A DNA stretch of 64,000 bases, from positions 62,001-126,000 of the forward strand of contig JAQZDA010000003.1 of NCBI GenBank assembly GCA_028751075.1, read 5' to 3'. This DNA is from Euryarchaeota archaeon Ods02 (GTDB lineage: Archaea; Halobacteriota; Halobacteria; Halobacteriales; Halorutilaceae). Under the pieces are notes generated by a model. That model ran no database searches. It was not told the origin of the DNA and worked only from the letters and a program-made list of their open reading frames with translations. The translations under genes were made by a program, and so were the position numbers. Below, piece by piece: positions 13,493 to 48,519 of the stretch (position 1 is its first letter; the number at the start of each line of letters is the position of its first letter).

Positions 13493-13790
13493 GAGCTGGG
13501 AAGTAAGCAGTAGAGCGGTACATCGATAGCCTGGGAACTTTGGGGAGGAGAGACATCTAATCGGTATAGAAACGATGGTTCTCTCAGAAACCTGGTATTC
13601 GAGGAATCTACGGATTTGATCAGTTCATTACTCGGATCTTATCGGTGTTTGACTACTCACTCGTAAACTTGTTCGCAGTTTGCCGCCTCCCCGATTGGAA
13701 ATCAGTCAGTCCGCTCGCTGTCGCTCTTTTCCTTCACTTTTCAAATCGTGTCGGCGTTTCCTTCTCGCTCGCAGTAACTCGCTCGAAGTT
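13493..13790. other. Intergenic region holding the tRNA-Phe tail repeat
   Basis: About 300 bases separate the DUF3592 gene from tRNA-Phe. Apart from the detached tRNA tail at 13677-13696 and the gcgagcg-rich spacer next to the tRNA, nothing is recognised. Neither strand has a coding-like frame. Confidence 0.5.
13677..13696 (-). repeat. Detached copy of the tRNA-Phe 3' end
   Basis: Twenty bases repeat exactly the 3' end of the adjacent tRNA-Phe plus four flanking bases (original at 13787-13806), 110 bases further downstream of the tRNA in its transcription direction. On the tRNA strand the copy is preceded by gatttccaatc, a hairpin with loop tcc. The spacer is rich in gcgagcg. The layout matches repeats at tRNA-Val and tRNA-Arg. 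Confidence 0.85.
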
Positions 13791-13864
13791 TGCCGCCTCC
13801 CCGATTTGAACGGGGGACAACTCGATCTTCAGTCGAGCGCTCTCCCAGTCTGAGCTAAGGCGGC
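13791..13864 (-). tRNA. tRNA-Phe (GAA)
   Basis: The minus strand folds as a standard cloverleaf of 74 bases: acceptor GCCGCCT paired with AGGCGGC, discriminator A, D-arm TAGCTCAGACTGGGAGAGC, anticodon loop with GAA in ACTGAAGAT, and T-arm GGGG/CCCC around GTTCAAAT. CCA is not encoded and no intron is seen. It lies 99 bases from the divergent tRNA-Val. Confidence 0.95.
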
Positions 13865-13963: not shown

Positions 13964-14037
13964 GGGTTCGTGGTCTAGTTGGTTATGACACCTCCCTTAC
14001 AAGGAGGAGATCCCCAGTTCGAACCTGGGCGAACCCA
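13964..14037 (+). tRNA. tRNA-Val (TAC)
   Basis: A 74-base cloverleaf: acceptor GGGTTCG/CGAACCC with discriminator A, D-arm GGTCTAGTTGGTTATGAC, anticodon stem CTCCC/GGGAG (loop TTACAAG, anticodon TAC), and T-arm CCAG/CTGG with GTTCGAAC. CCA is not encoded and there is no intron. A partial copy of its T-arm/acceptor end lies about 150 bases downstream. Confidence 0.95.
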
Positions 14038-14543
14038 CTGAGCGGGCCGTTCTGCGGGCAAAGTTGTGAGCACAGTTCGGACTAGTGAACGAAGCCGAAG
14101 GCGAAGTGACCGTGTGCGAGGCGGAAGCTGAGCGCAGGGAGCGTAACTTAACGAAGTGACCGAGGTTCGAACCTGGGCGATCTCATCCCATATCCTACCT
14201 CAAGCACAACACCAACTTAACGCAAGACAGTGACAGCCGAAAACCCTACAGACCTCTGTTTTCCAGGACCATCGAACCAGCTCCGCAGGACCACCTCGAC
14301 GTTGTCTCCACCGACGATATATGTGAAAAACGGTGAGATTCAGACTCATACACCGTCAAACCCTCTGTCGTTTCTAACGGGGTCGGAGAGTAGCTGGGTG
14401 TTTCGATAGGCGAACCAGTCCGGCCCGAGGTGGTGGACGGATGTTGTATTCGGGTTTATGTAGTTGAGACTTGGGTCTATAGAACTGGTTGACTGTCAAG
14501 TAATATAGAATCATATAAGTAACACCGTGTTATCCGTTATCAT
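14038..14543. other. Intergenic region with tRNA-Val tail repeat, possible gene remnant and gdh promoter
   Basis: The first 150 bases are the tRNA-Val spacer and tail repeat. On the minus strand 14346-14495 is an open stretch with convincing composition (NYINPNTTSVHHLGPDWFAY, then LSDPVRNDRGFDGV and a stop) but no start codon, so it may be a gene remnant. The last 40 bases hold the gdh promoter, with a TATA-like catataagt at about 14511-14519. Confidence 0.5.
14164..14188 (+). repeat. Detached copy of the tRNA-Val 3' end
   Basis: The 16 bases gttcgaacctgggcga at 14165-14180 repeat the T-arm and acceptor of tRNA-Val (14017-14032), followed by a degenerate tctcatccca. The sequence before it, gcgaagtgacc and gaagtgaccgag, resembles the spacer before the tRNA-Arg tail copy at 48.4 kb, which also has agtgacc-gaggttc. 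Confidence 0.8.
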
Positions 14544-36718: not shown

Positions 36719-36904
36719 CTGAAGAGTATACGAACTTTCTGTTACCGGTTCAACGAAGATGTCCCTCGGGTCGTAGTTTGGTCAGTAGAGCTTGCGACTG
36801 CTTCGAAAGTCGACGCTGAGCTACCAGAGAGGCCTTTTATCTATACGGTGTTCTCCTACAACCGGGGGAAGGGCTTTGTCGGATGGGTTCTAAACGAAAC
36901 TTGC

Positions 36905-48089: not shown

Positions 48090-48444
48090 GTTTACGCGCC
48101 GAGTAATCGTGAATCAGGGATTCACGGACTCGACGGTTCGCTCACATACGTTCGCTCACGCGCCGAGTCGAGTCAATCGGAGATTGACAAACACGGCGGT
48201 CACTCGCTCGTAAAACTCGCTCGTTCGCGCCGAGCAATCGTGAATCATAGATTCACGGACTCGACGGTTCGCTCACATACGTTCGCTCACGCGCCGAGCA
48301 GGGCAAATCGGAGATTTGCGTACTCGGCGCTTCGTTCCGCTATCGCTCCACTACGCGCCGAGCAGGATTTGAACCTCGGTCACTCGCTACGCTCGTTCAC
48401 TGGTTCAAACCTGTAGTCGCTCACTCGCTCAAAAATCTCTCGTT
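48090..48444 (-). repeat. Array of tRNA-Arg 3'-end units, minihelix-like
   Basis: Read in the direction of tRNA-Arg transcription, the acceptor tail ctcggcgc recurs after the tRNA at plus-strand positions 48355, 48291, 48227, 48160 and 48096, spacing 91, 64, 64, 67 and 64 bases. Each unit has a gagcgaac-type spacer, then a hairpin, then the tail. Hairpin stems differ but stay paired: gcaaatc/gatttgc, gtgaatc/gattcac (twice), gtcaatc/gattgac, with 3-base loops. In 48290-48330 the unit also has gcgccgag to pair with ctcggcgc, closing an 8-bp outer stem. In the three farther units 5-6 pairs remain possible. The first unit has a longer copy (ggttcaaatcctgctcggcgcg split over the T-arm). Not CRISPR: the units share both repeat and spacer sequence. 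Confidence 0.85.
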
Positions 48445-48519
48445 CGCGCCGAGCAGGATTTGAACCCGCGGCTTGGTGGTTCGAAGCCACCCGCTCTCTC
48501 CAGACTGAGCTATCGGCGC
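48445..48519 (-). tRNA. tRNA-Arg (TCG)
   Basis: A 75-base minus-strand cloverleaf: acceptor GCGCCGA/TCGGCGC with discriminator G, D-arm TAGCTCAGTCTGGAGAGAGC, anticodon stem GGTGG/CCACC with loop CTTCGAA (anticodon TCG), and T-arm GCGGG/CCTGC around TTCAAAT. CCA is not encoded and no intron is present. It is followed by the array of its own 3'-end copies. Confidence 0.95.

Follow-up and report, generated by a model that had tools for sequence, protein, structure and literature searches.

Hairpin-forming units ending in copies of the adjacent tRNA 3′ end are arrayed behind haloarchaeal tRNA genes

Introduction

The closest described counterparts of the arrays reported here are the repeats of the Escherichia coli tyrT/tyrV locus (RtT, Rfam RF00391). 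Their 178-bp unit contains an antisense arm, GGGGAAGGAT, together with a hairpin, and its terminal segment copies the tRNA tail, AATCCTTCCCCCACCACCA, exactly. Downstream of tyrV in E. coli K-12 there are units with GGGGAAGGAT inside and AATCCTTCCCCCACCACCA at the end. One unit also lies between tyrT and tyrV (L364), where strain SK1144 shows the precise empty site (L363). RtT units are present in 4671 of 5426 E. coli genomes, at 1-9 places each.

Other known systems share single traits with these arrays. Integron attC/CALIN elements consist of an outer arm pair, an unpaired spacer, an inner variable arm pair and a variable apex, and are arranged in polar arrays. Proviruses and plasmids that integrate into tRNA genes by means of tyrosine integrases show a direct repeat from the T-loop to the tRNA 3′ end, with the tRNA restored. 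SMR-A of Haloquadratum walsbyi is a non-coding, strain-specific sequence of ~110 bp with inverted repeats that is inserted in palindromes, and its mobilisation was termed 'enigmatic' by its authors (PMC3119063).

Here we report units behind haloarchaeal tRNA genes that share the design of RtT, starting from a ladder of tail copies at one tRNA-Arg. No description of the haloarchaeal arrays was found in the literature, in which subscription journals were thinly covered.

Results and Discussion

The window, i.e. the whole stretch of 64,000 nt that was analysed, is contig C32:62001-126000 of a genome of 2.27 Mb in 56 contigs (G000), which falls with the haloarchaea when grouped by order. The nonamer CTCGGCGCG, representing the acceptor 3′ strand and discriminator of tRNA-Arg(TCG), occurs on the same strand at 48445, 48354, 48290, 48226, 48159 and 48095, with spacings of 91, 64, 64, 67 and 64 nt. 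Elsewhere in the 64 kb only one further copy exists. These positions bear out the sequence-only reading, which had described five tail copies behind the tRNA at these intervals. The features of the ladder and the other units of the window are as follows.

48445-48519, minus strand: tRNA-Arg(TCG); its nt 53-73 (GTTCAAATCCTGCTCGGCGCG, 48445-48465) form segment S, which is repeated downstream
48431-48435, minus strand: T5 run directly 3′ of tRNA-Arg(TCG), within loop A of unit 1; a possible transcription stop
48354-48444, minus strand: unit 1, T-loop type; loop A at 48412-48444, antisense T-loop S′ (GGTTTGAACC) at 48402-48411, hairpin B at 48376-48401, S copy of nt 52-73 at 48354-48375
48290-48353, minus strand: unit 2, minihelix type; hairpin GCGCCGAG-TAC-GCAAATC-TCC-GATTTGC-CCTG-CTCGGCGCG at 48290-48330
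48226-48289, minus strand: unit 3, minihelix type; hairpin at 48226-48266
48159-48225, minus strand: unit 4, minihelix type; hairpin at 48159-48198
48095-48158, minus strand: unit 5, minihelix type, near copy of unit 3; hairpin at 48095-48135
13681-13790, minus strand: unit behind tRNA-Phe(GAA) (13791-13864, minus strand) with antisense T-loop; tail copy at 13681-13701 with 2 mismatches
14039-14186, plus strand: unit behind tRNA-Val(TAC) (13964-14038, plus strand); tail copy at 14166-14186 with 2 mismatches, antisense arm degenerate

Units 2-5 have the shape of an acceptor stem plus one arm of 7-8 bp with a 3-nt loop. Their stems are GCAAATC/GATTTGC, GTGAATC/GATTCAC (twice) and GTCAATC/GATTGAC, and all four units fold better than every shuffled sequence, with z-scores of -4.6 to -6.7 (RNA) and -3.4 to -5.7 (DNA). 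The compensated stems with 3-nt loops that had been noted for the four far units are thus all present, as is the pairing of the tail with an upstream strand. The minihelix shape holds for units 2-5, and unit 1 is of a different type. There, the whole segment from the T-loop to the 3′ end (nt 52-73) is copied and an antisense T-loop is carried, so that this unit is not a minihelix; its folding (z -0.87) is no better than that of shuffles. Units 3 and 5 lie in a 104-nt repeat, 88% alike at an offset of 131, and block duplication therefore contributed to the array as well.

Comparison of haloarchaeal loci revealed two unit types. T-loop units contain a tail copy of nt 53-73, an antisense T-loop and a B hairpin, and minihelix units a tail copy of approximately nt 65-73. 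Tail S is followed by loop A, then by antisense S′, hairpin B and a second tail S. The tail copies have sharp edges: between the tRNA and its first copy (144 of 222 tRNAs, the selection of which was partly guided by the motif), identity rises from 0.36 at nt 51 to 0.77 at nt 52 and 0.97 at nt 53, and falls from 0.92 at nt 73, the discriminator, to 0.56 at nt 74. S′ is complementary to nt 53-62 of its own tRNA (0.68-1.0 between nt 52 and 62) and this complementarity fades past nt 63. It follows its own tRNA also in detail, as an A at nt 57 is accompanied by an A in the arm in 135 of 146 cases and a G by a G in 52 of 53. Spacer A measures ~42 or 72 nt and tends to self-pair, and hairpin B mostly spans 28-60 nt. 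Genes were not found within the units, the lengths of which leave no room for them. At the contig C39 of the source genome (L061, 1-150), behind an apparent tRNA-Cys truncated at the contig start, nearly the entire tail is covered by the antisense arm (AAGCCAAGGCCGGTTCGAACC).

Folding is conserved in both types. Among 28 B hairpins of the commonest class (class I), a set partly selected by sequence start, 98.3% of the cells are paired, nine pairs are changed on both sides and covariation amounts to 0.324, compared to 0.110 in shuffled and at most 0.115 in slid controls. For nine minihelix units from four genomes, 95.2% pairing, four pairs changed on both sides and a covariation of 0.286 versus 0.107 were obtained. 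This strong covariation agrees with the earlier view of the compensated stems as selected or regenerated hairpins and, together with the cross-genome comparison, excludes that the stems are not conserved in relatives. Due to the choice of the set and possible hairpin-templated correction of the arms, covariation indicates that the hairpin matters or is regenerated, and not that it acts as RNA.

Many B modules show haloarchaeal motifs such as GAGCGNAGCGAG, i.e. hairpins in which a GNA triloop caps tandem G-A mismatches. Where B apices have two Watson-Crick pairs over tandem GA, the triloop is GNA in 68 of 93 cases; it is a very stable loop in DNA. B modules that are 85-100% alike occur behind tRNAs with different tails, so that loop modules are common to several tRNAs. 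At G006:C1:418734-418800, a B-like module is apparently inverted relative to the nearest tRNA. In two contigs of the source genome (L018 at the end of C36, L062 at the start of C8) the sequence stops within a tandemly expanded B-like module with a unit of ~50 bp (GAACGAAGCGCAGCGAAGTGACC...), and such arrays may consequently break assemblies.

The ladder is not peculiar to the tRNA-Arg locus, since own-tail copies were found behind other tRNAs. Three tRNAs of the window (Arg, Phe, Val) have them. Behind tRNA-Glu(TTC) (~36770-36840 of the window) no tail copy was seen, and a stretch there resembles the antisense of a tRNA 5′ half (GCTGAGCTACCAGAG). With a threshold of at most 4 mismatches in 21, which was our choice, copies occur behind ~22 of 38 tRNAs of the source genome, which was covered by the sequence surrounding its tRNAs, behind 20 of 44 in a complete relative (G014; mostly 0 mismatches in 21 nt) and behind 16 of the 30 tRNAs fetched from G039. 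In these three well-sampled genomes of haloarchaea, roughly one tRNA in two is thus followed by units. Genome rates were taken only from these whole-genome counts, the sets of 182 and 222 tRNAs having been partly gathered by motif. Within the former, own-tail matches with a score of at least 16 were obtained downstream of 118 of the 182 tRNAs, compared to none downstream of another tRNA and 5 upstream. A simpler count of short tail copies gave 8 of 322 tRNAs versus 0.2 expected. Carriers of units include Haloferax species.

Of 59 haloarchaeal genomes, 39 contain the motif of antisense T-loop, 30-60 nt and sense T-loop. Its reversal, used as control pattern, was absent from each genome listed, with 0 versus 26 forward matches in the source genome. 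In a scan of 85,000 species, the loci of which were sorted by hand into haloarchaeal and other on the basis of record titles, 62 of the 66 haloarchaeal matches listed follow a tRNA at a distance of up to 300 nt, and the remaining 4 are found at the edges of the fetched stretches. Of the 54 non-haloarchaeal matches listed, 3 lie that close behind a tRNA. The reversed pattern, the controls with own and other tRNAs and the taxonomic split of the scan rule out chance or low complexity as the origin. The same order of parts was observed behind a Lachnospiraceae tRNA-Ala (two units, both exact) and behind two Woesearchaeota tRNAs (L111, L126, L188).

A model of the minihelix (R1) gave strong matches in the 59 genomes only at tRNA-Arg(tcg) of the source genome and of G001, G003 and G013. 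Its four weak matches (E 3e-4 to 2e-3), at which no tRNA was found, resemble chance hits. Occurrence of the array at random sites away from tRNAs, which the sequence-only reading had also considered, is excluded by the scan for the T-loop type and, given these four tRNA-less matches, largely for the minihelix type. Viral contigs of IMG/VR yielded no recognisable haloarchaeal-type unit with a filter on loop content and G+C. This search gives no support for carriage by viruses, a weak negative since few haloviruses are included there.

The comparison with RtT suggested earlier holds. As in the E. coli locus, the 3′ end of the adjacent tRNA is copied exactly to the encoded mature end, an antisense arm is present (in the minihelix units too) and an empty site exists (G014/G039). 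The two differ in that RtT was seen here at the tyrosine tRNA locus, with a copy starting at nt 58 instead of 53, that the loop sequences are unrelated, and that no minihelix type was seen in E. coli. RF00391 found no match in the window at its gathering score nor, with E values of up to 1 allowed, in the haloarchaeal loci tested, whereas E. coli K-12 gives four. Judged by sequence, the haloarchaeal units are not RtT and follow the same design.

Nested arms, a variable apex and polar arrays are shared in shape with integron attC/CALIN, from which the haloarchaeal units differ by being anchored on a tRNA and by lengths that leave no room for cargo genes. The attC R box (GTTRRRY/RYYYAAC) was not encountered; the core GATTTGAAC/GTTCAAATC corresponds to GTTCRAATC/GATTYGAAC. 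Similar to tRNA-integrating proviruses and plasmids, a direct repeat from the T-loop to the 3′ end flanks the insert. However, the units measure only ~60-150 bp and are found behind many tRNAs within a single genome, and the inserts of ~100 bp do not encode an integrase. SMR-A is set apart by its description: it targets IS605-type/PATE palindromes and not tRNAs, and is described as lacking target duplications (PMC3119063).

Within one genus, G014 and G039 differ by whole units with precise empty sites, and the offset is located on the tRNA-proximal side; they were compared without an outgroup, so that gain and loss are not separable. At tRNA-Glu(ctc), the sequence after the unit of G014 equals the sequence directly after the tRNA of G039 (97% over 60 nt). 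A like register shift, with the extra unit adjoining the tRNA, was observed for Phe, Val(gac), Lys(ttt), Ser(tga) and Gly(gcc), and at other loci the first loop is in common and B is exchanged. Of 58 arrays with at least two units, 31 show greater divergence in the last copy than in the first, and 5 show the opposite (p=1.3e-5). The relatives of the window array at tRNA-Arg(tcg) all carry units, and in the five genomes compared the series differ: T,M,M,M,M; T; M,M; M,M; and M,T (T, T-loop; M, minihelix). Ordinary tandem duplication alone is ruled out by the differing modules in successive units and by the precise presence/absence. The latter, being tRNA-proximal, fits the 'serial attachment scars' that had been among the first suggestions for this locus.

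We consider it probable that displaced tRNA 3′ ends make up the ladder, which would result from repeated insertion of a small structured element at the 3′ end of the tRNA. A small non-coding, hairpin-forming element would insert into or right behind the 3′ part of the tRNA gene. By carrying or duplicating the tail it would leave the tRNA intact, and the former 3′ end would move downstream to become the terminus of the new unit. Repeated insertion at the same tRNA would then lead to an array with the newest unit adjoining the tRNA, i.e. to growth from the tRNA end, and block duplication as well as loss via recombination between tail copies could reshape it. For the insertion itself we infer a putative site-specific recombinase acting on the folded hairpin or the T-loop, a task that a tyrosine recombinase could perform; the main alternative would be a replicative template switch. 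The tail copy ends at the encoded mature end, which is nt 73 without CCA in haloarchaea and A76 with CCA in E. coli, as expected if an inserted element must supply a working tail. The own-tRNA S′ is not explained by simple donor-to-target insertion without later correction or templated synthesis. Template switching accounts more directly for the tRNA-specific antisense arm, but not for the sharing of modules between tRNAs. Only tentatively, an integron-like process may be envisaged, in which tRNA genes form the platform and a putative host or mobile tyrosine recombinase would recognise folded single strands with the T-loop as outer arms and insert interchangeable hairpin modules at the tRNA, giving a chronological array of displaced 3′ ends; E. 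coli RtT would then be a stray case.

Instead of such insertions, selected RNA elements could be involved whose transcripts, made behind the tRNA, would function as RNA, be it as small RNA ladder, in trailer control or as decoy for RNase P/Z, the CCA enzyme or a synthetase, as proposed for the E. coli rtT RNA. The strong covariation is in line with this, as are the acceptor stem plus arm with the right discriminator in minihelix units and the match of the E. coli relatives to the annotated RtT RNA family. Additionally, the B modules inspected by eye in the listed sequences run in a single direction relative to the tRNA. We nevertheless regard RNA function as unlikely, given the rapid presence/absence inside one genus, the approximately half of the tRNAs that have no units, and the GNA triloops and arm correction that fit DNA hairpins too. 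Further, 44 of 143 first units have TTTT ahead of S′, compared to 8 predicted from shuffled sequences; if acting as a terminator, such a run would often end transcription upstream of the hairpin, and many units may sit behind a stop.

The order S-A-S′-B-S would also result from two template switches, and slippage or template switching at the palindromic T arm might produce S′ and S as a mutational by-product, with hairpin-templated correction keeping the arms complementary and neither enzyme nor function involved. While the tRNA specificity of both S and S′, the block duplications and the occurrence of the same design in unrelated taxa accord with such an origin, it is rendered quite improbable by near-identical B modules at tRNAs with different tails, by the stop of the tail copies at the encoded mature 3′ end and by the strong haloarchaeal excess. 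Maintenance of the arrays as integrase decoys, the extra tail copies being alternative attachment sites for tRNA-targeting proviruses and plasmids, is very unlikely, because it leaves S′, A and B unexplained, even though the copies run from the T-loop to the 3′ end, a usual archaeal attachment region (PMC8371274).

Conclusion

The haloarchaeal units apparently constitute a class of small mobile repeat that is widespread and had not been described. An oddity studied at one E. coli tRNA locus has a genome-wide counterpart in haloarchaea, where the two-part hairpin design is conserved, modules are exchangeable and turnover is polar. Tail copies beside tRNAs need not mark provirus borders. If the arrays grow outward from the tRNA, they would constitute short records of insertion history at tRNA genes, through which archaeal viruses and plasmids mainly enter. 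Haloarchaeal units, e.g. those of Haloferax, offer testable systems for a putative recombination activity.
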